A stretch of DNA of 64,000 nt from Chitinivibrionales bacterium. GTDB lineage: Bacteria > Fibrobacterota > Chitinivibrionia > Chitinivibrionales > FEN-1185. A program made the position numbers and the translations under genes. Positions within the stretch are counted from its first letter, which is position 1. Each line of letters starts with the position of its first letter. Of the stretch, positions 4,901-21,579 are shown piece after piece. The notes under the pieces are model-generated. The model was not told the DNA's origin. It saw nothing but the letters and a program-made list of their open reading frames with translations, and did not search any database. The stretch lies in assembly GCA_035516255.1 (NCBI GenBank), contig DATJAL010000005.1, positions 1 through 64,000 of the forward strand, given 5' to 3'.

Positions 4901-5746
4901 TCACTGATGTCCGGCGAGCCGAATGGTAAATCCGGCGGTGAACGAGTCAACCTGTTCCTGCGAAGTGGACGCCGACCGGCCGCCTCCGCCGCCATGCATA
5001 CCCCCTCCTCCGCCGTGCATGCCTCCGCCGCCGCGGCCGTGCATACCTCCTCCTCCGCTGCCGCCCATGGCGTGAGAAGAAGTCCCTCCTTCCCCGCCTT
5101 CACGTCCGGAGGTGATGTCTGGAACGTCGGTCGCGCACTTCAAGGATATCAAAGTGTCACTGCCGATGTCCATGGCGTATTTGTTGACGGAATCGGAATT
5201 GAGCGGAACCTTGAGCAGGTATACCAGGCTCTCATAGGTAGGAAACATCTTAACCACTATTCCGAAAGTCAGAGCCACCGAGGTTTTCACAGGAACGCTG
5301 TCGCTTTTTTCGGGGCCCAGGAGTTCCATTTGTTGCAATGACTCATCCGAAATCTGCGGAGCACCCTCGGCTTCCTGCCCGCCGTTGTGGTGCCGCCAGC
5401 CTCCTCCAGGGGCGCCGGCGGTTTGCCCGACCGGAAAGTGGATACCGAACAGCCTCCTCTTTTTTGATTTGCTGGTGAACCATGTGGTGAAACCGTACCT
5501 CAAAATTCGCCTGTTGACGTCCTGTTTCCATGAAGTCAAGCAAAGGTACAGGTATTTGCTGTCGTTTCTCGCCCCCACGCCAAATTGAGGATCATCGGGG
5601 TATTGCACCTGGCCTTTCCAGCGGCTCGTGTCCGCGGCAAGCAAGGAATCCGGAGCCGTCCATTTACTTTGGATAATTTCCTGCGGTTTGCAGCCAAGCA
5701 GAATAGGCAGTAAGATTGCAACTAGAACTGTTAATGACCTTCCCAT
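4901..5746 (-). CDS. Gly/Met/His-rich lipoprotein, last gene of the RND/ABC exporter operon
   Basis: The start is ATG at 5746 (MGRSLTVLVA), preceded by GGAGGAAT 5 bases upstream; an upstream in-frame ATG has no such site. A lipobox LLGC follows the signal. Residues about 25-110 (FGVGARNDSKYLYLCL, RILRYGFTTWF, LFGIHFPVG) look like a DOMON/CBM9-like beta-sandwich seen in other bacterial lipoproteins. The C-terminal third is a low-complexity tract with repeated GGGGMHG units, followed by a Ser/Thr-rich end. Met-His pairs in a Gly-rich context could bind Cu(I) or Ag(I); that is inference. As the last gene of the operon it may be a substrate, a metal buffer or an accessory subunit of the exporter. 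Confidence 0.75.
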   Translation of the reverse strand: MGRSLTVLVAILLPILLGCKPQEIIQSKWTAPDSLLAADTSRWKGQVQYPDDPQFGVGARNDSKYLYLCLTSWKQDVNRRILRYGFTTWFTSKSKKRRLFGIHFPVGQTAGAPGGGWRHHNGGQEAEGAPQISDESLQQMELLGPEKSDSVPVKTSVALTFGIVVKMFPTYESLVYLLKVPLNSDSVNKYAMDIGSDTLISLKCATDVPDITSGREGGEGGTSSHAMGGSGGGGMHGRGGGGMHGGGGGMHGGGGGRSASTSQEQVDSFTAGFTIRLAGHQ

Positions 5747-5786
5747 GCGGTATTCCTCCATAAAGAAAGCGCCAGGGCTATAGGTT

Positions 5787-6053
5787 CTACAATGAAGGTT
5801 TTCCATCTCTCACGCCTCGCCGGCAATACGCCAGAAGCGGTTCCACGTCCCCGTCTCCATCGATGATGCAATGACCGCCCTTCACGACAGGCAATACCCT
5901 GGAAATTCGTGCCATGGCGTCCTGCAGCAAAAGCCTGAGCAGCCGGTCCTCGGAACCCTCATACAAGGTTGCAAGTCTGTTGTAATGCTCGGAAAGCGAC
6001 TGAGGCGTCTTTACAGAGGACAATATCTGCGTGCAAGCATCGTAAACGTTCAT
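5787..6053 (-). CDS. Small conserved-looking protein in the exporter operon
   Basis: I take ATG 6053 (MNVYDACTQIL) with AAGG upstream as the start, giving 88 residues. Longer in-frame starts exist, but their extra residues look non-coding. The protein is helical and hydrophilic, with no signal peptide, and ends in a basic tail with two Cys or His-flanked segments (GGHCIIDGDGDVEPLLAYCRRG). It lies between the ABC-2 permease (108 bases upstream) and the Gly/Met/His lipoprotein. I do not recognise the family. A cytosolic accessory or regulatory role for the exporter is a guess. Confidence 0.5.
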   Translation of the reverse strand: MNVYDACTQILSSVKTPQSLSEHYNRLATLYEGSEDRLLRLLLQDAMARISRVLPVVKGGHCIIDGDGDVEPLLAYCRRGVRDGKPSL

Positions 6054-6161: not shown

Positions 6162-6878
6162 CTAGGCCAAAAACTTTTCCCGCGCCGTGAGATTGCGCAT
6201 GCCCCACAAAATGCCGGCCATCCCGGCCGCCGCCAGAAGTATCCGGTTGGCCCTTACGGTCGCATGCCACGTCATTTCTTTTGCGCCGCTCACCGCGTCA
6301 AAGGGGTTTAGGAAAACGTTCCATTGGTTTGCGGCAAGGGAACCGCCGGCCACCCACAGGAGAAAGCCGGCCAGGATCAGCAGCACCGCGGCGCCGTAGG
6401 CGCTTCGCATCAGCGTGGAGCACGCGAAGGCGGTCCCGCTCCAGAAGACCACGGCGAAAAAAATTTGCATCGACATCCTGACTATGGGGAAGCCGCTGTA
6501 AAAAATCGCGCAAGCGCAGCAGAGGCAGAACAGCACCGCCTCGGCGACCGCGATGCTCAACAGCAGCCTGAACAGCCACACCTTGTAGCGGTAATCCGGA
6601 ATGCCGAAGATCATTTCGAGCATGCGGGCGTCCGAATCGCTCTGGATCCCGAACACGGCCGGGTAGAACACGAGCAGAATTCCCGGAAGAAGCAGGAGAT
6701 CGTACAACGTCGAAGGCGTCAGTTCCTTTCCGGCCGCGCGGTTGATCAGCACGGCCGCGGCGAACAGGCCCATCGCCGCAAAAAGGAAATAAAGGAACCG
6801 CTGCGCGAAAACAATCTTGATATTGTAGCGCACAAGGAGCAGGCCGAGACTCAGCGCCCGTAGAATTCCCGCAATCAT
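6162..6878 (-). CDS. ABC-2-type transporter permease
   Basis: A 238-residue integral membrane protein with about six hydrophobic segments, no ATPase motifs and the topology of ABC-2 permeases: long loops near residues 75-105, including the basic DYRYKVWLFR turn before the third segment. Its start overlaps the end of the RND-ABC fusion gene by 4 bases, so the two are translationally coupled. The natural reading is that it pairs with the ATPase domain at the C-terminus of that fusion. The substrate is unknown. Confidence 0.75.
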   Translation of the reverse strand: MIAGILRALSLGLLLVRYNIKIVFAQRFLYFLFAAMGLFAAAVLINRAAGKELTPSTLYDLLLLPGILLVFYPAVFGIQSDSDARMLEMIFGIPDYRYKVWLFRLLLSIAVAEAVLFCLCCACAIFYSGFPIVRMSMQIFFAVVFWSGTAFACSTLMRSAYGAAVLLILAGFLLWVAGGSLAANQWNVFLNPFDAVSGAKEMTWHATVRANRILLAAAGMAGILWGMRNLTAREKFLA

Positions 6879-9800
6879 GCTTCCTTCTTTCTCTTCTCAC
6901 GCATGAGGCACAAATAAGCGTCTTCGAGCGTCGGAGGCGCCGGCAGGGCCTGCGGATGCGGAATCGCGTCCGCGATGCAGCGCACCTGGATGCGGCCGCG
7001 GTCGCCGATGCGATGGACCACCGCCGCCGAGGCGGCAAACGAGTCGTATTCCCCTGCGTCAATGGTTGCCTGCCAGACGCGGCCGGCGGCCCGGCCGAGC
7101 ATATCGGCGGGAGTGCCCTCGTAGCGCAATTCGCCTGACATGAGCACCGCCAGCCGGTTGCAGGACGAGGAAATGTCCTCGATGACGTGGGTGGAAAAAA
7201 TGACGATTCGATCGCGGCCCAGCTCCGCCAGGAGGTTGCGAAACCGGATGCGCTCGCCGGGATCGAGCCCCGCGGTGGGCTCGTCGACGATCAGGATGCG
7301 CGGCAGATGCAGCAGGATTTGCGCGATGCCGATGCGCTGCCGCATGCCGCCCGAAAACGACCCGATGGTCCCGCGTGCATGCTCGGTCATATGGACCTCC
7401 GAAAGCACCTGGCCGATTCGATCTTTGCGCAGCGTGGGGTCGTGCAGGCCCTTGAGGATGGCCTGGTAATCGAGGAATTCCCATGCTGTCAAGTTCGGGT
7501 AGCTCCCGAATTCCTGCGGCAGGTACCCGATGAGGCCTTGCAGTTCCTCGCGGTGCCGGGCAGTGTCCCTGCCGTTGATGTACACCTTGCCGTAGGTCTG
7601 ATCGTAGACGCCCGCCACGATGCGCATGAGCGTGCTCTTGCCGGCGCCGTTTGGGCCGAGAAGCCCGTACATGCCCGGCTCGATGTGCAGGCTCACGCCC
7701 TTAAGCGCGTGGAAGGTAGGACGGCGCCGTCCGGGCAGGGGCAGGTTCTTTACAAAGGCGCAATAAGCGGCCGCAAGGCCGCCCCAGGGCTTCGGCCATT
7801 GGCCCGCGCGGAAATCCGGGCGGCCATCCAGCCATCTGGCCGTTGCAAGCACGGCAAGGGCCGTGTACCATACAAAACCCGCCGCCGCCACCACGTGGAG
7901 CCTGTTCCACCGGAATTGAAAGAACACCAAATTTGCCCCGGGGATCGACCACCGGATTGCCTCCAGGATCCGCAACTCAGCATCCGCCCCAAATCCCTTC
8001 CATAGCCGCCGGCATAGCCGGAAGACGCCGAATTTCTTGACAAAAAACAACAGGTAACCATAGGCGACCACGGCAAAGACGGCCTGCCACAACTCGCTTT
8101 CGAGATACCAGTAGACAAAATAGACAAGAAACGCGAGCAGAGGCGCCTGCCACAGCAGGCCTCCCCAATCGGCGGCGCCCGGTTCCCGCGAGACCGCGTC
8201 CACAGCGTCGCCCCATTCCCTGGAAAAACGACCCGGCATGCCGTAGAGCTTCTGGACGTTGCGTATCGTGATCGATACCGGTTCCGCGCCTTTTCCGGCG
8301 GGCGCCGCGCGCCGCAGGCTGGAACGGACGAACCACACCGCTGCCGGAATGGCCGCTGCCGCGATAACCAGGTCGCAAAGCCGCCACACCGGGTTGTCGA
8401 CATTCAGGAATATCAGGACTGCCGCAAGCGCAAAACCGGAAAGCTGAACCGCGTTGACCTTCCAGGAAAGGCCGCGCAGATACGCGAGCGAGGATTCCAG
8501 GCCAAGGTAACAAGTCGGGAGAAATACCAGCGTGAAGAGCGCGGCGGAGATTATCCCTCCGATCACCGTGAGGGCGAAGGGGGCGCCGATGGAGCCGAGC
8601 GTCCCGGCATTTCCGAGTGCGAGGGGCAGCATCCCTGCCGCGGTGGTGATTGCGGTGATAATAATGGGGCGTATCCGGTCCTGTCCCGCGGTGATGAGCG
8701 CCCGCGCCGTTGAGAAGCCGCGGCCGCGCAGCACGCGCACGAAATCGATGAGGATTATGCCGTTGCCCACCACGACCCCGAGCAGGATCAGAAAACCCAT
8801 CAGCGAGTTCGCGTTAAGCAGGTTGCGGCCGGTGGCGGACAACAGCCAGAAGGCGCCGATTGCCGCCAGCGGAATCGAGAGCATCATCACGAGTGGCGCG
8901 GTGAGGGATTCGAACACCGCCGCGAGGATCATGAAAATAAGCAGAACCGCGGCCCCGATGAGGTAGACAAAGTCGCTCAACCCGCTTTGCCCGTGAACGG
9001 ATTCCACCGAAAGCCCGTTCGGAAAGGTCATGGCGGCCAGGATATTGTCGACCTCCTGCCGCGAGGCCCGCAAAAGCTCCCGGGACGCGGCAATATCGTC
9101 TGTAAATCGGTAGGTTATCTGGATGCGGTGCTCTTGATTGGCCCTGTTGATGCTCGCGGGACCGCTGGCGCGTATGATTTGGCTCACCTCGTTGAGAAGG
9201 TGGTCCGTTCCGTCGGATGCGGCGATGGGAACGTTGCTCAGTTCGTCGAGGGTCTTGGTGTCGCCGGCCGCGTCCTTGCGGCCCGCTGAGGCGCCCGCCT
9301 GCTGCTGCACCGAGGCGGCCTTCGATGTCACCATGATGTCGTACTGGTCGGCGCCCTGCTTGAAGGTGAGGCCCGAAGCCATCTCCTGTGTGAACCCGGA
9401 AAGTTCGGATGCGACGGACTGCAGCCCGATCCCGTATTGCCGCATGAGCCGGGCATCGAACAGCAGATGGACTTCGCCTTGACGCCCAGGAATATCGAGC
9501 TGGACCGATTGCACGGAGGGGAGGTTTTGCAACTCGTACCTGATGTTGTCGGCGACCGCCTCCATCTGCGAAAAGTCGTCGCCGCGCACCGTGACGGTCT
9601 CGTCCTGGCCGCCGCCCATGAGCAGCTGCATCCTCGCCGCCGAAACGGCCCCGCCGGGCGCGCCTCGGTAACGCGAACTTGATGCAGGCTGGGAAAAGCC
9701 CACGCTTCCGAGCTGGAAATTGTCGAGCCTCTTCTGGATGTCCGACTTGACCTGCGCGAGGCTCCTGCCGGCGACGCCGCCGAAATCATCCCGGAGCTTT

Positions 9801-11617
9801 ATGGTGAGCACGGCCTCGTCCTCGTACACCATGCTCAGGAGATCGCGGGCCTCCGCGATGCCCTGCAGCCGTTTTTCCAACTCGCGCACGGCGAAATCCG
9901 TCTTGTCAAGCGTGGCGCCCGCCGGCATGGTGAGGTACAGGGAAAACTGGTTGGCTTGGGCCTGAGGCGCGGCCTCGCCCCCCTGCAGCAGGCACACGCC
10001 GAGGGAGGCCAAAAACACGGCCGTCGCCCCGCAGACGGTCGGCACCGGATGGCGCAGCGCCCCCTTGAGCAGGACGCGGTAAAAACGGACGGCGGGGGTG
10101 TGAAATCCGACCTTCCTGAAAGTAAAGCCCTGCCGGTGCCGCCGCAGCCCGAGCAGCACCGCCGTCGGCACCAGCAGAAAGGCGGTGAGGAGCGCTATGA
10201 AAAGCGTCGCGATCACCGAAACGCCCACGTGCTTGCCGATGAGCCGGATCGTGAAATCGGACGCGAACAGGAAGGGAACGAAAACGATCGCCGTGGTGAG
10301 CGTCGACGCAAGCACGGGCCGGAAGACCTCGGCCGTGCCCCGGACAACCGCCCGCTCAGCCTCCAGCCCGCGTCCCGCGAGTCGGTAGATGTTTTCCATG
10401 ACCACGACGCTGCTGTCCACCAGCATCCCGACGGCGAGGGCCATGCCCACCAGGGTGAGGCTGTTGAGGGTGATCCCGGTGATATAAAACAAGTTGAAAG
10501 CTCCGAGCACGGACACCGGAATCGCGGCCGCGACGATCAGCGTGAGGCGCAGGTTGCGCAGAAATACCCACAGCACCCACACCGCCAAGAGGCACCCGAT
10601 GACCGCAAGCATCGCGATCTGGTTGAGCCCCTGCTCGATGTCGTCGGCGGTGTTTGCCTGGACAACGATCTGCACGTCCTGCGGCGCCAGGGTCCGGTTG
10701 AGCCTTGCCACGGCCGCCTGCACGGCGTGCGAGAGGTCGATCATGTTCGCCTGCGCGTCGCGCACCAGCTGCACGGTGACCGCATCCTTCCCGTTCACCC
10801 GGCTTAGCGTGGTGGGTTCCTTGACTCCGTAGAAGACCTTGGCGATGTCTTTGAGAAACACCTTTCCGTTCCTGTTGCTCACCATGATGTCTTCGATGTC
10901 CGACAGTTTCCGGAACTCCGCGTCCACGTTGACGAAGAATCGCCTCCCCCCCTCGCGGATCGCGCCCGCGTACTCGCGGGCGTTGTTGTTCCTTGCGAGG
11001 AGGTTCTGGATGCGGCTGGGGGTGATGCCCGCCGCCCGGCAGGCGTCATCGTCCATGACGATCTCAACCGTCTTGCTGCGGCCGCCGAACACCTGGGCGC
11101 TGGCCACGCCGTCCACGTCGGAAAGGGCGGGCGCGATTTGCTGGTCCGCGATGTTGCGCAGGCGGTCGACGCCTCCGCCGCCGCGCACCTGGAGGGTCAT
11201 GAACTGGTTGACGGCCGACTCCGTGTTCACCTTGTCGACCGTGACGGTGAACTGCGGAGGTATCTGCGAATCCGCCTTGACAAGGGCAACCTGCTGCTGC
11301 AGCTTGAGGAAGGCGTACTTGACGTTCACGTCCTTGTCGAAATAGACGTAGATGGTGCCGCGCTTGGGCTCCGAATACGAGAGGATACTCTCCACTCTGT
11401 CAAGAAGCGCCGCCGCGCCTTCCAGCGGGATCACGGCGCTGTTCTCCATGTAGGAAGGGTCCACGTCGATACGGCTGGCGACGCGGATGAGCAGCATGGG
11501 CAGTTCGGTGTCCGGGTAAAGCTCGAGCGGCAGGTTGCGCAGGGAAACGATTCCCATGAGGCAGATGCCCGCGAAGAGCACGCCTATCAGAATCTTGCGG
11601 TTGAAAAGCTTGATCAT
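6875..11617 (-). CDS. RND efflux permease fused to an ABC transporter ATPase domain
   Basis: A single frame of 1580 residues starting at ATG 11617 (MIKLFNRKILIG); an in-frame start at 11698 would overlap the upstream gene. Residues about 1-1035 are a complete HAE-type RND pump: N-terminal TM1, LELYPDTELPML, porter domains, LVDSSVVVMEN in TM4, and GVVVGNGIILIDF in the second half. Then come two TM segments (about 1045-1092), an ABC-like first strand ITIRNVQKLYG (about 1115), an insertion with about three more TM segments (1145-1255), and a full nucleotide-binding domain: Walker A GPNGAGKST (about 1315), signature SFSGGMRQR, Walker B ILIVDEPTAGLDP and H-loop FSTHVIED. RND pumps use the proton gradient and ABC domains use ATP; having both in one chain is very unusual. 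The next gene encodes a matching ABC-2 permease. Confidence 0.9.
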   Translation of the reverse strand: MIKLFNRKILIGVLFAGICLMGIVSLRNLPLELYPDTELPMLLIRVASRIDVDPSYMENSAVIPLEGAAALLDRVESILSYSEPKRGTIYVYFDKDVNVKYAFLKLQQQVALVKADSQIPPQFTVTVDKVNTESAVNQFMTLQVRGGGGVDRLRNIADQQIAPALSDVDGVASAQVFGGRSKTVEIVMDDDACRAAGITPSRIQNLLARNNNAREYAGAIREGGRRFFVNVDAEFRKLSDIEDIMVSNRNGKVFLKDIAKVFYGVKEPTTLSRVNGKDAVTVQLVRDAQANMIDLSHAVQAAVARLNRTLAPQDVQIVVQANTADDIEQGLNQIAMLAVIGCLLAVWVLWVFLRNLRLTLIVAAAIPVSVLGAFNLFYITGITLNSLTLVGMALAVGMLVDSSVVVMENIYRLAGRGLEAERAVVRGTAEVFRPVLASTLTTAIVFVPFLFASDFTIRLIGKHVGVSVIATLFIALLTAFLLVPTAVLLGLRRHRQGFTFRKVGFHTPAVRFYRVLLKGALRHPVPTVCGATAVFLASLGVCLLQGGEAAPQAQANQFSLYLTMPAGATLDKTDFAVRELEKRLQGIAEARDLLSMVYEDEAVLTIKLRDDFGGVAGRSLAQVKSDIQKRLDNFQLGSVGFSQPASSSRYRGAPGGAVSAARMQLLMGGGQDETVTVRGDDFSQMEAVADNIRYELQNLPSVQSVQLDIPGRQGEVHLLFDARLMRQYGIGLQSVASELSGFTQEMASGLTFKQGADQYDIMVTSKAASVQQQAGASAGRKDAAGDTKTLDELSNVPIAASDGTDHLLNEVSQIIRASGPASINRANQEHRIQITYRFTDDIAASRELLRASRQEVDNILAAMTFPNGLSVESVHGQSGLSDFVYLIGAAVLLIFMILAAVFESLTAPLVMMLSIPLAAIGAFWLLSATGRNLLNANSLMGFLILLGVVVGNGIILIDFVRVLRGRGFSTARALITAGQDRIRPIIITAITTAAGMLPLALGNAGTLGSIGAPFALTVIGGIISAALFTLVFLPTCYLGLESSLAYLRGLSWKVNAVQLSGFALAAVLIFLNVDNPVWRLCDLVIAAAAIPAAVWFVRSSLRRAAPAGKGAEPVSITIRNVQKLYGMPGRFSREWGDAVDAVSREPGAADWGGLLWQAPLLAFLVYFVYWYLESELWQAVFAVVAYGYLLFFVKKFGVFRLCRRLWKGFGADAELRILEAIRWSIPGANLVFFQFRWNRLHVVAAAGFVWYTALAVLATARWLDGRPDFRAGQWPKPWGGLAAAYCAFVKNLPLPGRRRPTFHALKGVSLHIEPGMYGLLGPNGAGKSTLMRIVAGVYDQTYGKVYINGRDTARHREELQGLIGYLPQEFGSYPNLTAWEFLDYQAILKGLHDPTLRKDRIGQVLSEVHMTEHARGTIGSFSGGMRQRIGIAQILLHLPRILIVDEPTAGLDPGERIRFRNLLAELGRDRIVIFSTHVIEDISSSCNRLAVLMSGELRYEGTPADMLGRAAGRVWQATIDAGEYDSFAASAAVVHRIGDRGRIQVRCIADAIPHPQALPAPPTLEDAYLCLMREKRKKEA

Positions 11618-11654: not shown

Positions 11655-14600
11655 TCATTTCTTGCGCCGTGTACCCTGTACGATCTCGTCCACGACATCG
11701 TACACGCAGGGAATGACCACCAGCGTGAGGAGCGTTGAGGCGGCCAGGCCGCCCATCACCGCAAGGGCCATGGGCGTGCGCAGCGCGGCCCCTTCCCCGA
11801 ATCCGAACGCGAGGGGAAGGAGCGCAAGGATCGTCGTGAGGCTCGTGATCACGATGGGCCGGAACCGGCGCTCTCCCGCCGCAAGGATCGCCTCGCGGCG
11901 CGAGACGCCCTCAAGCCGCAATTGACGGATGGCATCGAGGAGCACGATGGCGTTGCTCACCACGATGCCCACGAGCATGATCACCCCGATCAGCGCCATA
12001 ATGTTGAACGATTTCCCCAGAATAAAGAACAGGGGCACCACCCCTATTACGGCAAGGGGCACGGTGCAGATGATGACGAAGGGATGGACCAGGGATTCGA
12101 GCTGCGCCGCCAGAACCATGTAGACAAGAAGGATGGCCAATGCAAGCGCGGCAACGAGGCCTTGGAACGATTCGGCGCGCTTCTGTTCGTCTCCCGATAT
12201 TTCCAGCCGGCATCCCGGCGGAAGCTCCATCGCGCCGAGCCTCTGACGAACGCGCTGCATCACGTTGCTGAATGCCGCACCCCCGGCGAGCCCGGCCGTG
12301 ATCCGTGCCAACCGTGTTTGGTCGTGACGCAGGATTTCCTTTGGGGAAAAACCCTGCTTCACCTGCGCCACGTCCTGGAGGGGAACGCTGGAACCGGCCT
12401 CGACAAGCATGAACCTCGAGAGCTGCGGCCTGGTCATGGCCGGAAATTTGACGGTGATGTCCTTGAGCTCGCCGTTGCGGTTCCATTGCCCGGCGTTCCT
12501 GCCAAGCAGTTCGTCGGAAAGCTGGGTCGCGATGTCGGCGGCGCTGGCATTGTAGTCGCCGGCCCGGAGTCTGTCGACGACTATCTCGATGGAGGGGGCT
12601 CCCTGCTCGAAGTTTGAGGACACGTTCGCCAGTCCGGGGACCTTCCGCAGCGCGACGGCGATGGAGTCGGCGGCCTTCTCCAATATGTCAAGATCGTCGC
12701 CCTTCACCTGCACCACCACCGGAGGCTCGCCCCGGCCCAGCACGTTTTGCAGCACGTTCTGCTCCGGCTTGTATTGGATGGTGACCCCGACTCCCGCGAT
12801 GCCGGACTTTGAGAGAAGGGCCGCCGCCCGCGCGGCGTCCATGGTCCGGCGCGGATCGAGCACCACCCGTATTTCGGCGGTGTTCTCGTCCTGCGGCTGA
12901 TTATTGGACGTCGCGATGCTGGTCGTCACCACCGGCCCGCTTTCGCTGTAAACGGTTTGTACGGCGTCGCCGAGCACCGATTTGATGAGGTTTTCGATGC
13001 CGCTTACGGTTTGCGCCGTCCGCTGAAGGCTCGTACCTTCTGGAAGATGCACGGCAACGGTGAACTGGCGGGACCCGACGGCGGGGAAAAATTCGGTGCC
13101 CACGAAGGGTATCATGGCCGCGCTTCCGGCCATGAGCGCGGTCGCGCAGACCAAAACCGTGCGCCGCCGTGAGAGCGCTTTTTCGAGAAGGTCGCGGTAC
13201 CAGGCGAACCGCAGAGACCGGTGCAGCTGCCTTTTTCCGAGAAACCGCGACGCCAGCATCGGAATGAGGCTGAGCGCCACGACGAGGGACGAGAACAGCG
13301 CGAACGTCACCGTCCACGCCTGGTCGCGGAACAGCTCCGCGGAAATCCCGTGCATGTACACGATCGGAAGAAAGACCACCACGGTCGTGATGGTCGAGGC
13401 GAGCACCGCGGTTCCCACCTGGGCCGTTCCCTTGACCGCCGCTTCACGGATGGGAATTCCCGACTCGAAATTCCTGATGATGTTCTCCACCACGACCACG
13501 GCGTCATCCACGAGGCGGCCCGCGGCGAGCGCCAGCCCTCCCAGAGTCATGAGGTTGAGCGTGAGCCCCCGGAAGTACATCAGGTTGAACGTCGCGACGA
13601 TGGAAAAGGGGATCGCAACGCCGATGATGACCGTCGGTCCGAGTTGCCGCAGGAAAAAAAGGAGGACAAGGATCGCAAGAAATATCCCGACGAGGGCCGC
13701 CTGCTTCATTTCGCCTATCGATTCATCGATGAATTTGCCCTGGTTCGCGACAATCGTGAATTCGTACCCGGGCAGCGTTGCGCGCAGATGCTCTATTTCA
13801 TGCACGATTTCATTCACGGCGGTAATGGTGTTGAACCTGCTTTCCTTGTACACCCGGAGCCCGATGCACCGCACGCCGTTGATACGGGCGATGTTCTGCG
13901 GATCCTTGTTGCACAGCGCCACGGTCGCGACATCCTTGAGGCGTATCGGCGTCTTGGCCGCCGCAGAGGTGTCCTGGCCGGTCGACGGAACTGCGTTCTG
14001 GCTGAAGCCGACGACAAGGTCTTCGAAGTCGGCGAGCGAGTTGAACACGCCCGTGCCTTTCACGACGTACTTGAGCCCAAGCTCGGTGATCGATCCGCCC
14101 GACACGTTCCGGTTGAAGTTCTGTATCTGCGTGGCGATCGCGGCCGCCGACAGGCCGTATGCCTGCAAGAGATAATCGTTGGTCTTTATTTCCACCTCGT
14201 CCTGGTCTTGGCCGCAGATCTCGACGTCCGCGATCCCCGGTTGCCGTATTATCTCGGTCCGCACGCAGGTTTCGGCGGTCTTGCGCATCGCGTTCATGTC
14301 GTCGATTTTCCTGTTTGAGAATGCCAGTATCATGACGGGCTCGTCGTTGGGATCGTAATGCGTGACGTCGACGGCGTCCATGTCGGAAGTCTGGGCGAAT
14401 GCCGTGACCGCCTTTTGTAAATCAAGGAGCGCCTCGTTCATGTCGGTGTTCCAGGCATACTCCACAGTGATGTGGCCCATGCCGACGGCGCAGGTTGAAT
14501 ACACGCCGGACGCGCCGCGCTGGCGAACGGCCAGCGCCTCAAGTTTCTGCACGTACTGTTTCTCGATTTCCTCGGGAGGCCGCTCGCCCGCAGTGAGGGC

Positions 14601-14744
14601 GATATACAAGCGGGGATTGTTGAGGGTCGGGAAGAGCTCCATGCCGAGCCGTTTGTACGAAAGCGCGCCCAGCAGGAGCACGGCCAGGGCGGCCATGAGA
14701 ACTGCCACCGGGTTCTTCACCGAAAATGCGACGAGTTTTTGCAT
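11655..14744 (-). CDS. RND efflux permease (HAE/AcrB-type)
   Basis: A 1029-residue inner-membrane proton-driven pump of normal family length. The N-terminal helix is followed by LGMELFPTLNNPRL. The proton-relay Asp pair is present in TM4 (LVDDAVVVVEN), and the second half carries GIVVSNAIVLLDAIRQLR. The periplasmic porter and docking domains are intact. It begins 14 bases after the adaptor gene and ends 37 bases before the RND-ABC fusion, inside one operon. With the neighbouring adaptor and TolC-like channel it should form a tripartite efflux pump. Two different RND chains side by side suggest a heteromeric pump, as in MdtBC, which is inference. Confidence 0.9.
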   Translation of the reverse strand: MQKLVAFSVKNPVAVLMAALAVLLLGALSYKRLGMELFPTLNNPRLYIALTAGERPPEEIEKQYVQKLEALAVRQRGASGVYSTCAVGMGHITVEYAWNTDMNEALLDLQKAVTAFAQTSDMDAVDVTHYDPNDEPVMILAFSNRKIDDMNAMRKTAETCVRTEIIRQPGIADVEICGQDQDEVEIKTNDYLLQAYGLSAAAIATQIQNFNRNVSGGSITELGLKYVVKGTGVFNSLADFEDLVVGFSQNAVPSTGQDTSAAAKTPIRLKDVATVALCNKDPQNIARINGVRCIGLRVYKESRFNTITAVNEIVHEIEHLRATLPGYEFTIVANQGKFIDESIGEMKQAALVGIFLAILVLLFFLRQLGPTVIIGVAIPFSIVATFNLMYFRGLTLNLMTLGGLALAAGRLVDDAVVVVENIIRNFESGIPIREAAVKGTAQVGTAVLASTITTVVVFLPIVYMHGISAELFRDQAWTVTFALFSSLVVALSLIPMLASRFLGKRQLHRSLRFAWYRDLLEKALSRRRTVLVCATALMAGSAAMIPFVGTEFFPAVGSRQFTVAVHLPEGTSLQRTAQTVSGIENLIKSVLGDAVQTVYSESGPVVTTSIATSNNQPQDENTAEIRVVLDPRRTMDAARAAALLSKSGIAGVGVTIQYKPEQNVLQNVLGRGEPPVVVQVKGDDLDILEKAADSIAVALRKVPGLANVSSNFEQGAPSIEIVVDRLRAGDYNASAADIATQLSDELLGRNAGQWNRNGELKDITVKFPAMTRPQLSRFMLVEAGSSVPLQDVAQVKQGFSPKEILRHDQTRLARITAGLAGGAAFSNVMQRVRQRLGAMELPPGCRLEISGDEQKRAESFQGLVAALALAILLVYMVLAAQLESLVHPFVIICTVPLAVIGVVPLFFILGKSFNIMALIGVIMLVGIVVSNAIVLLDAIRQLRLEGVSRREAILAAGERRFRPIVITSLTTILALLPLAFGFGEGAALRTPMALAVMGGLAASTLLTLVVIPCVYDVVDEIVQGTRRKK

Positions 14745-14758
14745 GGCGGTTTGCCGGG

Positions 14759-15814
14759 TTACTCCAGAACCTTCACCCGGCTGCCGTCCTGAAGGGTCTC
14801 GAAGCCCTTAACGACCAATCGATCCCCCACCGAGACTCCCTGGAGTATCTCGATCCGGTTGTCGCTTTCTATGCCGGTCTTGATCGCGCGAAGCTGGGCC
14901 CGGCCCCGGTCCACCACAAAGACGCTGTGGCCCTTGAGGTCGGAAAGCACCACGGTCTTGGGAACAACAACCGTGCTGTCTTTGTGCGCGACCACGATGT
15001 CGGCCTTGACGAACATCCCGGGAAGGAATTTCTTCCCCGAGTTGTTGATGATGCATACGGCCTCGAACGTGCGCGATGTCGGGTCTATAGCGGGAGAAAT
15101 CTGCGAAACAGTACCCATGACAGTGTCATTTTGCACTGTGTAGTTGGTGACCAGCACGGTCTGGCCGAGGCGAAGGTCGGCCATGTCCTGCGCGGGCAGT
15201 TTGCACTGAAGGTAGAGACGGGAATATTCCATGGCCGACAGCATCACCGATCCGCTGGGCACCCTGGTGTTCTGCGTGTAATACGGAAGCGCGGTGAGCA
15301 CACCCGCAAACGGGGTCTTGATGAACAGTTTGGACTCCTTGAACGCTGCGTCCGTATAATTGTATTTGGCGTTGGAGTACGCAAGTTGTGCGTTCTGCAG
15401 ATCGTTGGATGCGGCCCCGCCCTTGTCGTACAGCGACTGTTCCTGCGAAAGCGTGTTCCGCGCTATGTCTTGTGAAAGCTTCTGGGCTTCCACGCGGTTG
15501 GTGCTTTCATAATCCTCGTCGGAAAGCCTGATGATGGTGTCTGTCTCCTCGACCCAGTCGTTGAGGGCGTACGGCTTCTTCGTTCGCGGGTTTACCTGCA
15601 GGCTGTAATACGCCGTCACCTCACTCGATAGCGTGACTTCCTTTTCGGCATTTACGGTCCCGGTCGTCTCCAGGAGCCGCGAAATCGATTGCGGCTTCAC
15701 CTCCTGAGCCGAAACCGGCACGATGACCGTGGTGCCGTCTTGCGATTGCTGGCTCCCGCAGGAGGCCAGAATCATGGCGGCGACGCCGCCGAGGACCATC
15801 TTGACTGTGCGCAT
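14759..15814 (-). CDS. RND efflux periplasmic adaptor (membrane fusion protein), lipoprotein
   Basis: The start is ATG 15814 (MRTVKMVLGG), with AAGGA about 10 bases upstream. The signal ends in a lipobox (LASC), anchoring it to a membrane as AcrA-type adaptors are. The order of parts is typical: beta-barrel and lipoyl segments around VTLSSEVTAYYS, an alpha-helical hairpin (DEDYESTNRVEAQKLSQD to FKESKLF), the second lipoyl half FIKTPFAGVL, a beta-barrel domain, and the membrane-proximal domain near KGHSVFVVDRG. It lies between the TolC-like gene and the RND pump in the expected order. Adaptors of this family bridge the inner-membrane pump and the outer-membrane channel. Confidence 0.9.
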   Translation of the reverse strand: MRTVKMVLGGVAAMILASCGSQQSQDGTTVIVPVSAQEVKPQSISRLLETTGTVNAEKEVTLSSEVTAYYSLQVNPRTKKPYALNDWVEETDTIIRLSDEDYESTNRVEAQKLSQDIARNTLSQEQSLYDKGGAASNDLQNAQLAYSNAKYNYTDAAFKESKLFIKTPFAGVLTALPYYTQNTRVPSGSVMLSAMEYSRLYLQCKLPAQDMADLRLGQTVLVTNYTVQNDTVMGTVSQISPAIDPTSRTFEAVCIINNSGKKFLPGMFVKADIVVAHKDSTVVVPKTVVLSDLKGHSVFVVDRGRAQLRAIKTGIESDNRIEILQGVSVGDRLVVKGFETLQDGSRVKVLE

Positions 15815-15819
15815 GCCGT

Positions 15820-17286
15820 TCAATCCTTGATGGGCGTGATATCGGGAAAAACCGGTTTATCCGCTTCAAAATCCCACAGGCTCAGGACTTTCATGTTGAG
15901 CATCTCGATCTTGAGATTGACTATCGCATTTATCAAGGCGCTCTTGGCCTGGGTGAGTTGGATCTCGTACTGGTTGAGGTCGAGGGCACTCATCGCTCCG
16001 GTCTTGTACTTTTGGACGTTGAGGTCGTAGGTGAACTGCGCGTTGTGCTCCGCTCCGCGCGCGATTTCGATCTGGGAACGGAGGTTGAGTATGGTACGGT
16101 ATTCCTTGCGGATCGACAGAACGACGGTGGTCTTCTCGTTTTCGAGCGTGAGCCGATTCATGCGGACCCCTAGTTCGGAGGCCTTCACGTTTGCACGGTT
16201 GGCCCCGAAGTCCCAGAGCGGAATCTGGAGTGACACCGAAAGCGCCTCGCTCTTGGCCGGGTTCTGAAACAAGGTGTTGAGGTCCCTCGAGTTCCCTGCG
16301 AGGCCGACGGACGCGTTGACCGCACCGCTCGCGAAGCCGCTGCTGCGCGTCTGGAGGAGGTTGAACTCGGCGTTCCGGAGGGTAATGGCGTCCTGGCGCA
16401 GCTCCATTCGCTTTTGCAAACCATTGGCGACCGCCTTTTCCAGATCGATGGGAACGGGGCGGGCCGCGGTATCCACAACGATAACGATCATGGAATCGAT
16501 GCAGATCGCGAGACGCTGCTTGAATGCCTCCGCCGCATTCTCCCAGGTAACCTCGTTGTTCTGCATGCCCGATTGGCTCTGCGCAAGGGTGACCTCCGAT
16601 TGATAGAGATCCGATTGGGCGGAAATCCCGAGCAGGACTTTGTTTTTGGTGATTTCGTAGCTCTGCTGATCGTCGCGCAACTGGTCCTTGGCTATTTCAT
16701 AGTTGACCTGGTCCTCGTACAACCCGTAAAAATCGAATGCAATGTCATGCTCCATCGAAAGGACCTTCATCGCATAGACCAGCTGGCTGTTCTCCAGTGT
16801 CAGCCTCGCCTCGTCCAGCGTCGTCCTGAGTTGATTATAAAGGAGAATAGGCTGTGAATATCCGATGGTAGTACGGTAATCGAATGACTTGTTTTCCCTG
16901 TTGAAAAGGCCCGTGTACAAATCGTTCCAGCCCGCGTCGCCGACCAGCGTGATCGTGCCGCCCGTGAGCCAGACCGGCTGCGACAGGGTGAGATCGGCGT
17001 TGGATTGCAAATTACGGCTTGTGGCCCAGAGGTTGTAGGTATTATTGAGCTGCAGGCTGTTTGAAAAGCCCAGGGGCGTAAGCGACAATGCGACGCTCAG
17101 TTTCTGGCCGGCGGCCGCGGCGCGATACGTCTCCTCGCTCTGTTCCAGCGCGAGCTTGGCCTGCACCACCTCGGGGCTTTGCCTCAGGGCAATGTCCAGC
17201 GCCTTCTGATATGTCAACGTGTCCGCGGCGATCCGCGAACCGGGCAATGCGCACGCGACAAAAACGATAAGCCACACGTTCTTCAT
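15820..17286 (-). CDS. TolC-family outer-membrane efflux channel
   Basis: A 488-residue protein with a signal peptide (MKNVWLIVFVACALPGSRIAA). Two repeated halves of long amphipathic helices follow, each with the OEP pattern YQKALDIALRQSPEV and KAVANGLQKRMELRQ. The C-terminal half contains the helical segment ending LNLKIEMLNMKVLSL. Trimers form an outer-membrane barrel with a periplasmic helical tunnel. Its ATG shares an ATGA overlap with the upstream permease gene, so translation is coupled, and the adaptor start lies 5 bases after its stop. It provides the exit duct for the RND pumps and possibly for the ABC part. Confidence 0.9.
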   Translation of the reverse strand: MKNVWLIVFVACALPGSRIAADTLTYQKALDIALRQSPEVVQAKLALEQSEETYRAAAAGQKLSVALSLTPLGFSNSLQLNNTYNLWATSRNLQSNADLTLSQPVWLTGGTITLVGDAGWNDLYTGLFNRENKSFDYRTTIGYSQPILLYNQLRTTLDEARLTLENSQLVYAMKVLSMEHDIAFDFYGLYEDQVNYEIAKDQLRDDQQSYEITKNKVLLGISAQSDLYQSEVTLAQSQSGMQNNEVTWENAAEAFKQRLAICIDSMIVIVVDTAARPVPIDLEKAVANGLQKRMELRQDAITLRNAEFNLLQTRSSGFASGAVNASVGLAGNSRDLNTLFQNPAKSEALSVSLQIPLWDFGANRANVKASELGVRMNRLTLENEKTTVVLSIRKEYRTILNLRSQIEIARGAEHNAQFTYDLNVQKYKTGAMSALDLNQYEIQLTQAKSALINAIVNLKIEMLNMKVLSLWDFEADKPVFPDITPIKD

Positions 17287-20200
17287 TGTTGTTTTACCCA
17301 TTTGACGGCGTCGCCGACCACAAACGGCATTCCGTCCGCCCTGTCGGTGAGCTCCACGGTGGACGTGCCGGCCGAACAGTGGAACCGTCCCAGCAAGTTC
17401 CATCCGACCTGGATGTCCTGTAAGTCAAGTGGGGCGTCCGAAACGCCGTCGTCGTGGTGAACAACGTAGTGAAAGGTCCCCCGCGTCGCCTCCTGGCCTC
17501 TCCTGCCACCGAAGCCTTGACGGAACCCCGCACCGTTGTAGTAGGCGAAGATTTCATACGTGCCCGGTTGCTTGAGCGCCGCACGCCAGGCTATCCGTTT
17601 TTGTCCGGTTCCACTTTTAATATAATAGGCCGAACGCACATACCTGCCGTAGTAGAGCGGACCGGCAACCTGCGTCCAGTCGGCCGGCGGATCGAAGAAC
17701 CGCATCGCCGCGTAGCGGTCCGGCATGGAAGCTTTGCCGAAAATCCGGTCGAGTGCGCCGGACGCGGGCTTTGTCTCAACGGCGAACCCCGAATCTTGGT
17801 CGTCCACGATCACGGCGCCCTGTTCGGCCTCGTGCACGGCGTCTATCACGCGGTCGCCCTCAAAGGGAACCCCTTCCTTGTCAAAATCGACACGGTCGAA
17901 CCCGTAGGTTATTGTGGCCGGAATATTGCGCGAAATAAATGTTCCTATCGAGAGCATGCGGGGTGGATTGTCCGTCATTATGCCGATCTCCTTGCTCTGC
18001 CGCGGCGCGAAGGCGACGATCCGTTCCTCGGTGCCGCTGATGCCGCGGCCTGCGGCGGCACCGCCGAACCGCCTCCCGCCAAACGATCCCGTTCGTACGG
18101 TCAACCTGATAAGTCCCTCGGCGGATTCCGGATTCCAGACTTCCAGGCTCACCTTGAAACGGTTTGCGCCCTTGTCCCGCACCTCTGCCGCGGCGACATT
18201 TTCCACGACGTATCCCGGAAGCGCGTGCGGCCGGTAGCACGCCTGGGCGGCGGGCATGAGATCGAACCCGAATCGTTGCTTAACATCCGAGATCAAGCCG
18301 CCTAGGTCGATCGCCTTGAAACGGCTTTGTGCGAGCAGGTCGCGCATATAGTCGTCGAACGATTGCGGCGGAATGTTCTTCTGCATGTCGGCGATCAGAT
18401 AGTCGCCGAGCGCCCCGACGACATCGCGCAACAGCGGCCGGTTCCGCTCGTCACGGCATATCTGGCCGAAGCTGCCGTTTTCAAGCAGCAGATTTACTTT
18501 TTCGTCGGTTGACGCGCCGGTAAAGAAGGTGCGCGTCACTGGTCCGAAGCCGCCCGCAGCGCGTTTTCTAAAATAGGATTCAAGAGCCGGACCGAACAGC
18601 GGGCACTGGTCGGCCCGTATGGCGCGGGCATACGAAACGTACTCCGGAAAGACGAAGAGGTTCACCGCCGGAACGCCCACGGCAGGCAGCCAACCAAACG
18701 CCCAGGCCGCCGCACTGTTTCGGTCCTGCGGTCTGAGCATGAGTTGCCTTCCCTCGTTATCGCGAAAGAAGGTCGCGGACACGAAACGCTGGAAAAGGGC
18801 GCTTTGCCGTTCCATCGGCGTCTGCGTTGCCTGCTCGTTCTGCCTGCGGTTCCCGAAATCGGACGGCGTCCTGCTGAAATCGGCGTCGGTGAGCGTGAAC
18901 CCGTTTTCCGGCAGCAGCGCCATTTCGGGCTGGATCGCCTCGTGACCCGAGGTCCACAGCCGCGAAAAATCGGTGAACTGCAGCGGAACCTCCACGGCCG
19001 AAAACCGCCTGTAGGGGTAGTCGGCCTTGAGCCGGCCTTCAAAGTCTGCCCTCAGGACACGGATTTGCGATGCAACGGTATCGGCAGGAAGTTCCTTTAA
19101 AAACGGTTTGTAATATCCATGATTCGCAAGTGTAAAGAGGCGATACTCAACCGAATCGACCCTGACCGCCGACCGCACATACGGTCCGATGATCACCGTG
19201 ACGCCGGGAAGGGGCACTTCGGGCGCGAATGAGTTCCCCGGCAAGGCAGCGCCCTGGCTCAAAACGGTGAGCCCATGTCGGGTCGCCACCGAAACGGTGA
19301 ATTCCGTGAGCCCGGCGTCGCCGCATTCCGGATGCTCGGAGGAAAATCCCGTGCCGGCGCGAGGGTAAAAGCCGGTTTCCGGGGTGAGAAGGACGAAACG
19401 GTTGTTTACAAATGAAAACCGCGGCAGCCTTTGAAGGAAGAAGACGGCCGAACTCCTCTTCACATCGTCTGAAGATACATCGAGATAACAGGCGCGCTCG
19501 TCGATGGTGCCTTCGTAGCTCACGGTCACGGTATCCAGTGAGCCCGGCGCCAGAGGCGCGCCCGGTTCGACCAGAAGCAGATCCAGCGAGCGGCGGAATG
19601 TCGATCCCTTTCCGCCCAGCACTTTCTTCACAACTAGTCCGGGATTGAGCCGCAGCACGTATTGACCGACCGGGGCTGTCCCGCCGTTGCATAAAACGAG
19701 CCGCGCCGTGCCCCGGATCGTCTTGCCGGTGTGGGTAAGCGACAGATCATCGCGCGCTATGGTCACACTGGGAGCGCCGAAATAGCGCTCGTGTTGCGCA
19801 AGGATTTCCATCCTCAATTGCTGCCCTCGAATGTTGCCTGCAACTATCGTAACCGCGGTCGTTCCCGCCGCGCCGATCAGCAGCAGCGAAAGCACGAGCG
19901 CCGCTCGGTGAACCGCCTCCGATTGCGGCAAACGCTCCAACCGCAGGCCAGCAATAAGGACAAAGGAAAGGCCGAGCAGGAAATATGCGCACCTGACCGC
20001 CGCAGCCGCGTTCGGGAACCCGAATCCGGTGAAATCCGAAGCCATCAGCGGCGCCCGCAGCGACGCAAAATCGAAGGTTGAATAGAGCGTATCGGGTAGA
20101 AGGAAAAACGCCATGCCGAGCGAACCGAGGAGCAGCAGAAGCGATACGGGCTGGCTGCGGACGAGGGACGTGACGACAAAGGAGAACCCGATGCAGAACA

Positions 20201-20708
20201 CCAGCGTTGGCAGGCAGATGAGCAACGGATAGAACGCATAGGCCGCGAAATTCACCGGAACGCCCCGGGAGAAGGCATTGAAAAGAAATGCGATTGCGAG
20301 CGCCGCGCAATCCAGACACGCAAAAACAAGAAGGTTGCCGCACACCTTGCCGATTACGTAGCCCACATTGGAAATGGAACGGATGTACACGGCGTCAGTG
20401 GTGTCCAGAGTCCGGTCGCGCTTGACAAAATCGGACGCAAGAATGACCGCCACCGCCGATTGAAGAACGTTCACCAGCAACATGGTAAGGTACGGGATGT
20501 CGGCGGGGATGGCCTTCACCACCCACGCGTTTATCTGTCCCGTTCCGAAGACAAGCGCATTGACAATTGCGACGAGCGCGAGCAGAACGCCCGCGAAAAC
20601 CCGGAAGAACCAGCTGCGCCACAGGGTGAGCCCCTCGTAGCGGGCAACGGCGAGCACTTTAAAAAACGACCCTTTTACGCGATTCGTCCTTCCGCTTTCA
20701 GACATCAT
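17283..20708 (-). CDS. ABC-2 permease fused to an M1-peptidase-like domain and a golvesin-like domain
   Basis: About 1141 residues in three parts. Residues 1-300 hold about seven TM segments of an ABC-2 permease (FARYEGLTLWRSWFFRV-like start, then GYVIGKVCGNLL). Residues about 330-860 resemble the M1 aminopeptidase-like domain of known ABC-2/M1 fusions (GHEAIQPEMALLPENG, then FRDNEGRQ), but I see no HExxH zinc motif, so it is probably not catalytic. Residues about 960-1141 match golvesin/xanthan-lyase CBD-like modules (AVIVDDQDSGF, ADWTQVAG, IAWRAALKQPGTYEIFAYY, WNLLGRFHCSAG, GDAVKWV). The start ATGATG overlaps the end of the upstream ATPase gene by about 11 bases. It should pair with that ATPase. 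The golvesin-like end would be periplasmic or surface-facing; its role is unknown. Confidence 0.8.
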   Translation of the reverse strand: MMSESGRTNRVKGSFFKVLAVARYEGLTLWRSWFFRVFAGVLLALVAIVNALVFGTGQINAWVVKAIPADIPYLTMLLVNVLQSAVAVILASDFVKRDRTLDTTDAVYIRSISNVGYVIGKVCGNLLVFACLDCAALAIAFLFNAFSRGVPVNFAAYAFYPLLICLPTLVFCIGFSFVVTSLVRSQPVSLLLLLGSLGMAFFLLPDTLYSTFDFASLRAPLMASDFTGFGFPNAAAAVRCAYFLLGLSFVLIAGLRLERLPQSEAVHRAALVLSLLLIGAAGTTAVTIVAGNIRGQQLRMEILAQHERYFGAPSVTIARDDLSLTHTGKTIRGTARLVLCNGGTAPVGQYVLRLNPGLVVKKVLGGKGSTFRRSLDLLLVEPGAPLAPGSLDTVTVSYEGTIDERACYLDVSSDDVKRSSAVFFLQRLPRFSFVNNRFVLLTPETGFYPRAGTGFSSEHPECGDAGLTEFTVSVATRHGLTVLSQGAALPGNSFAPEVPLPGVTVIIGPYVRSAVRVDSVEYRLFTLANHGYYKPFLKELPADTVASQIRVLRADFEGRLKADYPYRRFSAVEVPLQFTDFSRLWTSGHEAIQPEMALLPENGFTLTDADFSRTPSDFGNRRQNEQATQTPMERQSALFQRFVSATFFRDNEGRQLMLRPQDRNSAAAWAFGWLPAVGVPAVNLFVFPEYVSYARAIRADQCPLFGPALESYFRKRAAGGFGPVTRTFFTGASTDEKVNLLLENGSFGQICRDERNRPLLRDVVGALGDYLIADMQKNIPPQSFDDYMRDLLAQSRFKAIDLGGLISDVKQRFGFDLMPAAQACYRPHALPGYVVENVAAAEVRDKGANRFKVSLEVWNPESAEGLIRLTVRTGSFGGRRFGGAAAGRGISGTEERIVAFAPRQSKEIGIMTDNPPRMLSIGTFISRNIPATITYGFDRVDFDKEGVPFEGDRVIDAVHEAEQGAVIVDDQDSGFAVETKPASGALDRIFGKASMPDRYAAMRFFDPPADWTQVAGPLYYGRYVRSAYYIKSGTGQKRIAWRAALKQPGTYEIFAYYNGAGFRQGFGGRRGQEATRGTFHYVVHHDDGVSDAPLDLQDIQVGWNLLGRFHCSAGTSTVELTDRADGMPFVVGDAVKWVKQQ

Positions 20709-21579
20709 CGTTTTTTCCCATGAAATATGCATAGGCGTGTTCCAGGTTCGGCTTTACGGGTTCACCGCTCAAATCCTCCCCCTGCCTCGCCACCATTTCA
20801 ACGTGCCAACCGCCAGCGGCCGAAATCGCCGCCACAACCATGTGCCTCTGTTTGACCGATTGAAGCTCGTTCTCCCTCACAAATGTCCTGAATACATGTC
20901 CCTCTGCCTGCCGGATCAATTCATCGGGCGCGCCGCAATAGGCCAATTGACCGCTCGAAAGCAGCGCCACGCTCCGACAGGTGTTCGAGATGTCGCCGAC
21001 GATGTGGGTAGAAAAAATAATTATTAAATCATGAAGGCTCATGGCTCCGATCAGGTTGCGGAAACGGATACGTTCCTCGGGATCAAGCCCGGTGGTCGGT
21101 TCATCGACGATCACCAATTGCGGATTGCCGATAAGCGCCTGGGCTATGCCGAGACGGCGCTTCATTCCGCCGGAAAGTTGGCTGGCCATGCGGTCGCGCG
21201 CGTCAAAAAGCCCGACTTTTGTAAGCATCTCCTCGACCGCGCGTCGGCGTGCCGCTTTGTCATGCATGCCGGCAAGCACCGCCGTATAATCGAGAAATTC
21301 GGCGGCGGAAAGCCGTGAAAAACATTTAAAATCCTGCGGAAGGTAGCCTAGGATAGACCTAATCGCGCCGCGCTCCTTGATTAAATCCATGCCATTCACA
21401 CGCACCCGGCCTCCCGTCGGCTCGAGTAAGGTAACCAGAATGCGCATCAGCGTGCTTTTTCCTGCACCGTTGGGACCGAGCAGGCCGAACATTCCGCTCT
21501 CGATCTCGAGATTGATGTTGGAAAGCGCCTTCCTTCCGTTCGGATAGGTCTTTTCGAGGGCTTCGATTGAAATGTTCAT
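20698..21579 (-). CDS. ABC transporter ATP-binding protein, first gene of the exporter operon
   Basis: A 293-residue cytoplasmic ATPase with Walker A GPNGAGKST (35-43), Q-loop YLPQDF (79-84), signature LSGGM (135-139), Walker B LVIVDE (155-160), D-loop and H-loop His192. The C-terminal 80 residues are a substrate-specific extension like those of lipid, antibiotic or Gld-type exporters. AAAAGG lies about 9 bases before the ATG. It is closely similar in motif spacing to the ATPase domain fused to the second RND pump (both read FLDY, LDP.ERIRFRNL), so the two may have arisen by duplication. It most likely drives the ABC-2/M1/golvesin permease whose gene overlaps its end. Confidence 0.9.
   Translation of the reverse strand: MNISIEALEKTYPNGRKALSNINLEIESGMFGLLGPNGAGKSTLMRILVTLLEPTGGRVRVNGMDLIKERGAIRSILGYLPQDFKCFSRLSAAEFLDYTAVLAGMHDKAARRRAVEEMLTKVGLFDARDRMASQLSGGMKRRLGIAQALIGNPQLVIVDEPTTGLDPEERIRFRNLIGAMSLHDLIIIFSTHIVGDISNTCRSVALLSSGQLAYCGAPDELIRQAEGHVFRTFVRENELQSVKQRHMVVAAISAAGGWHVEMVARQGEDLSGEPVKPNLEHAYAYFMGKNDDV

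Follow-up and report, generated by a model that had tools for sequence, protein, structure and literature searches.

We begin by considering the reading frame at 6875-11617, in which a sequence-only reading had seen an RND pump and an ABC ATPase domain on one polypeptide. Exporters of the RND and ABC types are regarded as mechanistically distinct, each class with an energy source of its own. The question is "does such a hybrid exist as one protein, and what kind of machine would it serve?" The window (the whole stretch of DNA that we analyse) has 64,000 nucleotides and is free of N runs.

The fused gene

The fused gene and the parts recognized in it are as follows.

6875-11617, minus strand: RND2::NBD2 fusion, 1580 aa (open frame, Pfam and orthologues)
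8498-11617, minus strand: RND2 permease part, residues 1-1040 (Pfam ACR_tran, 6-1038)
8327-8458, minus strand: two added TM helices that follow the RND core, residues ~1054-1097 (hydropathy and AF2 helices)
8243-8272, minus strand: predicted first ABC ATPase strand, ITIRNVQKLY, residues ~1116-1125, apparently separated from the remaining domain (AF2 strand and profile of NBD starts)
7718-8242, minus strand: apparent insert of ~180 aa within the ABC ATPase domain, with four TM helices, residues ~1126-1300 (hydropathy, AF2 and NBD-start profile)
6878-7717, minus strand: main part of NBD2 and its C-terminal extension, residues 1301-1580 (Pfam ABC_tran; Foldseek TM_1403, NosF and LptB)
7631-7657, minus strand: Walker A, GPNGAGKST (motif alignment)
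7334-7360, minus strand: ABC signature, SFSGGMRQR (motif alignment)
7274-7294, minus strand: Walker B, LIVDEPT, including the catalytic Glu (motif alignment)
7187-7189, minus strand: H-loop, His1477 (motif alignment)

The translation of 6875-11617 is free of internal stops and gives 1580 codons and a stop. The longest ORF of the same frame opens at an upstream ATG, 11698, and gives 1607 aa; it is from the ATG at 11617, not from 11698, that the homologues align. Pfam matches ACR_tran to residues 6-1038 (2.4e-157) and ABC_tran to residues 1305-1449 (4.9e-30). The ACR_tran match covers profile positions 7-1018 of 1021 with both repeats present, and the RND2 part is a full-length member of the RND superfamily. 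All three segments, RND part, linker and ATPase, keep a third-position GC between 0.74 and 0.89, which fits a single coding sequence. In a genome of the same genus the fusion protein has ~80% identity and an identical gene order; it is interrupted solely by Ns within the RND half, and the apparent split there is an N gap. The fusion is therefore confirmed as a genuine single polypeptide that has, as had been claimed, both a complete RND permease and an ABC ATPase; between the two lies a membrane linker. That two genes were wrongly joined by an artefact of assembly or frame, a concern that the sequence-only reading had itself raised, is virtually out of the question, because the codon-position GC is uniform over the RND/ATPase join and the fusion occurs in dozens of independent assemblies, with many unbroken copies in isolates and one, that of Draconibacterium orientale, on a complete chromosome.

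The linker and the ATPase domain

How are the two parts joined? The sequence-only reading had described one chain, and this stands. The linker is no passive joint: it consists of six TM helices, four of which appear to lie within the ATPase domain. Two TM helices come first, then the ITIRNVQKLY strand, then ~180 residues with the other four helices, and then the remaining ATPase. A profile made from 25 ordinary NBD starts picks out this strand in 56 of 60 homologues, always in one alignment column, with a mean score of 11.3 against 0.9 on shuffled linkers (99th percentile 10.0). Because this profile finds the strand upstream of the four-TM insert, the NBD2 domain appears to be interrupted, between strands one and two, by a membrane insertion of four helices, and an ABC ATPase domain appears able to tolerate such an insertion at this place. 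The AF2 model of linker and ATPase is moderate (pLDDT 77.8, pTM 0.62), and Foldseek matches the modeled ATPase to TM_1403, NosF and LptB. Since the added helices are even in number (2+4), the ATPase would stay cytoplasmic. Fifteen linker columns are invariant among 29 diverse sequences. Searches of Pfam and the PDB with the linker give no significant or member-consistent match, and a comparison does not support its TM helices as a copy of the neighboring permease PERM2.

The full set of ABC motifs that had been claimed is found in NBD2. The key residues of Walker A, Q-loop, signature, Walker B (the Glu), D-loop and H-loop are invariant in 67 of 67 homologues, with S/T after the Walker A lysine as the sole variation at these motifs. 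Judged by them, NBD2 is an ABC ATPase of the ABC_tran family.

The seven-gene operon

The fusion gene does not stand alone. Its stop shares an ATGA with the ATG of the next gene, the overlap of 4 bases noted earlier, and the remaining genes of the operon are as follows.

6162-6878, minus strand: PERM2, 238 aa, six-TM ABC-2-like half-permease (AF2 pLDDT 87.6; Foldseek PmtCD/NosY/ABCG2; no Pfam match)
11655-14744, minus strand: RND1 permease, 1029 aa (Pfam ACR_tran, 2.4e-210)
14759-15823, minus strand: MFP, periplasmic adaptor (HlyD/RND_mfp; domain match)
15820-17403, minus strand: OEP, TolC-type outer membrane channel (domain match)
17283-20732, minus strand: PERM1, 1149 aa, ABC-2 half-permease (~7 TM) with a periplasmic M1-like domain without HEXXH, and Golvesin_C
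20698-21579, minus strand: NBD1, separate ABC ATPase, 43% identical to NBD2

The adaptor, the TolC-type channel and RND1 bear out the RND/TolC setting that had been proposed for the fusion. In all complete loci the gene order is NBD1, PERM1, OEP, MFP, RND1, RND2::NBD2, PERM2; the loci checked are those of the window, Bacteroides faecis, Draconibacterium, Krumholzibacteriota and five further Bacteroidota genomes with the fusion, the last from an even draw of 395 Bacteroidota. PERM2 follows the fusion gene almost directly in other loci as well. RND1 and RND2 stand in tandem in all complete loci and are non-identical, which is the arrangement of an MdtBC-like locus; in mdtBC, too, one RND gene adjoins another that differs from it. 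The flanking genes differ by lineage, so the unit consists of seven genes, and no conserved neighbor beyond the seven offers a clue to the substrate. The conserved set contains no NosD-like gene, as a NosDFY system would. A role as a defense system is rejected, since PADLOC gives generic ABC/AAA matches alone.

Three observations concern the surroundings of the conserved genes. Directly downstream of the operon in the window, and outside the conserved seven, 4901-5806 encodes a lipoprotein-like protein of 301 aa with C-terminal Gly/Met/His-rich repeats (GGGGMHGG), possibly a metal-binding protein. Upstream of the operon, 22121-25258 carries Laminin_G_3, CHB_HEX_C_1 and a Por secretion (type IX) sorting tail, in a Fibrobacterota genome. 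Loci of the Draconibacterium group (L116, at 12252-12641; L027, L030, L035, L039, L042 and L048) have a gene of ~130 aa, GxxExxY-like, between RND1 and the fusion.

We turn our attention to the two permeases. Pfam gives an ABC-2 match in 0 of 49 PERM2 members. Foldseek places the AF2 model near PmtCD, NosY and ABCG2 (probability 0.99-1.00, TM 0.5-0.6), but with a best E-value of 0.018, which does not pass 0.001; with moderate confidence, PERM2 is probably an ABC-2 half-permease. The sequence-only reading had taken it to be the ABC-2 permease that completes an ABC transporter. Its ABC-2-like nature holds up in the predicted structure; that it makes the transporter whole is less certain, because a second NBD and a second half-permease are always in the operon. 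This second half-permease, PERM1, has ~7 TM helices and matches ABC-2 weakly; it also has an M1-like region, and Golvesin_C at its C-terminus. The HEXXH zinc site of M1 aminopeptidases is absent from PERM1, being found in 0 of 13 operon members (the window at 17283-20732, L115, L116, L167-L172 and L210-L212) against 20 of 20 stand-alone ABC-2/M1 permeases.

These stand-alone permeases come from Bacteroidota without the fusion, where the relatives of NBD1 adjoin a different permease of ~1200 residues with ~12-13 TM helices and HEXXH. In the two that were scanned, Pfam matches Peptidase_M1, and the stand-alone NBDs are 39-46% identical to NBD2. It seems that the permease that is one polypeptide in these relatives is two genes in the operon, with a peptidase that is now non-catalytic. 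The comparison of ~12-13 TM helices in a single permease with ~7 + 6 here suggests that PERM1 and PERM2 make up the membrane domain, and NBD1 and NBD2 the motor pair.

Distribution and origin

The next question is "does the fusion exist in other genomes?" A scan of 84,980 species genomes gives 80 loci, nearly all in Bacteroidota and isolates included. The search for the fused architecture that had been proposed yields ~66 full-length fused frames of about 1550-1640 codons; the other loci are mostly truncated at contig ends, and a few have frame breaks. Outside the same-genus match, the loci have 42-48% identity over linker and ATPase. In Bacteroidales, an RND2 orthologue is found in 33 of 247 genomes; those long enough to judge have the fused frame, and the four short frames that were checked all end at a contig end. 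Relatives with separate genes, the finding that would have spoken against a fusion, were looked for, and no intact RND2 orthologue without the ATPase was found among those examined.

By group, the fusion is present in 6/390 genomes of a Bacteroidota draw, 6/100 in the genus Bacteroides, 13/80 in Krumholzibacteriota and 2/168 in Fibrobacterota, both of the last from the genus of the window. Relatives are absent from the plasmids and viral contigs searched. In a tree, NBD2 forms one clade with support 99, which argues for a single origin of the fused ATPase; the Fibrobacterota genus likely gained the operon by horizontal acquisition. One Krumholzibacteriota locus (L213, 8904-13693) has a frame break within the RND half. 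Two frames that overlap result, and the ATPase is still fused to the second of the RND halves. An apparent second fusion in the source genome (G000 contig C45, L009 11886-16529, reported as a frame of 1550) is rejected, because it is really two ORFs, an ordinary RND and, further along in frame with it, an unfused ABC ATPase, with five in-frame stops between them.

No description of an RND-ABC fusion was found in the open-access literature searched, and in NCBIfam only generic RND and ABC models matched, below their cut-offs. The proteins must sit in public databases already, because the genomes are public, and domain-based annotation would probably hide the system as an RND efflux permease of generic name. 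Read as a tripartite RND pump into which an ABC-2 transporter is built, the system is apparently undescribed.

A proposed model of the export machine

Combining the information of the fused gene, the operon and the stand-alone relatives, we propose that the seven genes encode a trans-envelope export machine, with an ABC-2 heterodimer (NBD1/PERM1 with NBD2/PERM2) and an RND1/RND2 pump joined physically in one complex. We put the probability of this reading at roughly 0.4. PERM1 and PERM2 would each supply half of a single ABC-2 membrane domain, energized by the NBD1/NBD2 heterodimer, and the covalent link of NBD2 to RND2 through the six extra TM helices would keep the ABC part close to the pump. 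An amphiphilic substrate of the inner membrane would be flipped or extruded towards the periplasm at the expense of ATP. There the M1/Golvesin domain of PERM1, itself non-catalytic, may take up the substrate, which would then leave by the RND/TolC duct through the adaptor and OEP. Protons, ATP via the tether, or both are candidate drivers of the RND movement. Because two different RND genes adjoin, as in mdtBC, the model has RND1 and RND2 in one trimer. This putative heterotrimer would dock on the adaptor and the TolC channel and would resemble the RND heterotrimer of MdtB and MdtC (PMC8277102).

The model is supported by the constant company and order of the seven genes in three phyla (Bacteroidota, Krumholzibacteriota and Fibrobacterota), by the fusion of all intact RND2 orthologues together with the single origin of NBD2, by catalytic residues that are invariant in NBD2 and motifs that are present in NBD1 (the strict pattern is missed by two Walker A and two Q-loop strings, in 4 of 9 sequences), and by the permease of the relatives, whose TM helices are the expected sum of PERM1 and PERM2. 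The main weakness of the model is the dissimilarity of the two permease profiles: the comparison rejects PERM2 as a homologue of PERM1 (hhalign probability 0.2%), and the halves would be at best very divergent. The Foldseek E-values of PERM2, which fall short of 0.001, also count against the model.

NosFY and PmtCD are homodimeric systems, and NBD2 and PERM2 alone might form a transporter of this kind tethered to the RND pump, as the sequence-only reading had it, with NBD1 and PERM1 as a separate ABC transporter. We consider this rather unlikely. The overlap of PERM2 with the fusion gene in the window, their near contiguity elsewhere, and the resemblance of NBD2 to NosF and of PERM2 to NosY and PmtCD all agree with it, but the seven genes always occur as a set, a single permease with both halves serves the stand-alone relatives, and an NBD2 homodimer needs two RND2 chains per ABC unit. 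A trimer of one RND1 and two RND2, if so composed, would offer two NBD2 domains, and so the homodimer stays alive. Since the far end of the operon holds another NBD and another ABC-2 half-permease, the heterodimer is at least as likely as NBD2/PERM2 alone; NBD1 and PERM1 could equally form a homodimer of their own.

There was also a concern of what drives the RND pump. The sequence-only reading had it that RND pumps run on protons, which is not to be assumed here. At the sites of the AcrB relay, RND2 retains D407 in 66 of 67 members; D408 is N in 66 and S in one, the window protein, and K940 is N in 66 and G in one. RND1 keeps D407 as well and has N for D408 in 64 of 66 sequences (D in the other 2) and N or S for K940. 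R971 and T978 are retained. The D407-D408-K940 proton relay of AcrB-type HAE-1 pumps is not intact in these proteins. The unfused RND at locus L017 bears the same Asn variants, which are therefore a subfamily trait and by themselves no evidence of ATP replacing protons; the loss of the relay is rejected as a mark of ATP drive for being non-specific.

FtsEX and MacB move periplasmic parts using ATP. In a similar manner NBD2 could be no exporter motor at all, with the RND trimer gated or driven by ATP binding and hydrolysis, which the inserted TM helices and PERM2 would transmit to it. The four helices nested in the ATPase domain and adjoining the RND core would suit this role, and the replaced D408 and K940 in both RNDs of most members make an alternative energy input plausible. 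These substitutions, however, are not specific to the fusion, and PERM2 resembles a real ABC-2 permease; we regard such a gating ATPase as unlikely.

TolC-linked RND and ABC systems elsewhere function independently, and with this precedent the fusion might merely co-localize two transporters of the same cargo, each on its own energy source. Nevertheless, the invariant linker columns and the apparently split ATPase domain would be needless in a passive tether, and a split version is absent among the intact orthologues, which makes mere co-localization improbable.

Returning to the single complex with the ABC-2 heterodimer, we offer a further step only tentatively. The machine may be dual-energized, with ATP hydrolysis by the heterodimer and proton- or ATP-driven cycling of the RND part mechanically coupled in one covalent unit; the RND core would receive force or substrate by way of the helices nested in the ATPase, and an envelope amphiphile would be exported in gut, oral and environmental bacteria. 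An export machine of this kind may draw on ATP and the proton gradient together. The covalent hybrid is found in cultivable human commensals (Bacteroides faecis, Parabacteroides) as well as in environmental phyla, and its conservation makes two ideas testable: that ATP hydrolysis drives or gates an RND pump, and that inner-membrane extraction and trans-envelope export are done by one machine. To claim a new energy-coupling mode as a category would require biochemistry.

Comparison with known systems

The system is like MdtABC-TolC, an HAE-1 RND tripartite pump, in its full ACR_tran permeases, its adaptor and TolC-type channel, and its two different adjacent RND genes. It is unlike MdtABC-TolC in that RND2 has an ABC ATPase and six additional TM helices, most members have other residues in place of D408 and K940, and the operon adds two probable ABC-2 permeases and a second ATPase.

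With the NosDFY and PmtCD systems (ABC-2, type V) it would share the fold of NBD2 and its C-terminal extension, near NosF, and the modeled fold of PERM2, nearest PmtCD and NosY. The ATPase here is instead fused to an RND permease and apparently interrupted by four TM helices, NosD is missing, and the setting is that of a TolC tripartite operon.

The stand-alone Bacteroidota pairs of an NBD and an ABC-2/M1 aminopeptidase permease have the ABC-2 and M1-like layout of PERM1, and their NBDs are the relatives of NBD2 described above; the operon differs from them in apparently spreading the permease over two genes and in having lost HEXXH. Finally, ATP-driven work is combined with an RND-superfamily protein (SecDF) in SecA-SecYEG, and with a TolC duct in MacAB-TolC. 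Unlike the system described here, these have separate RND and ATPase proteins, or no RND part.
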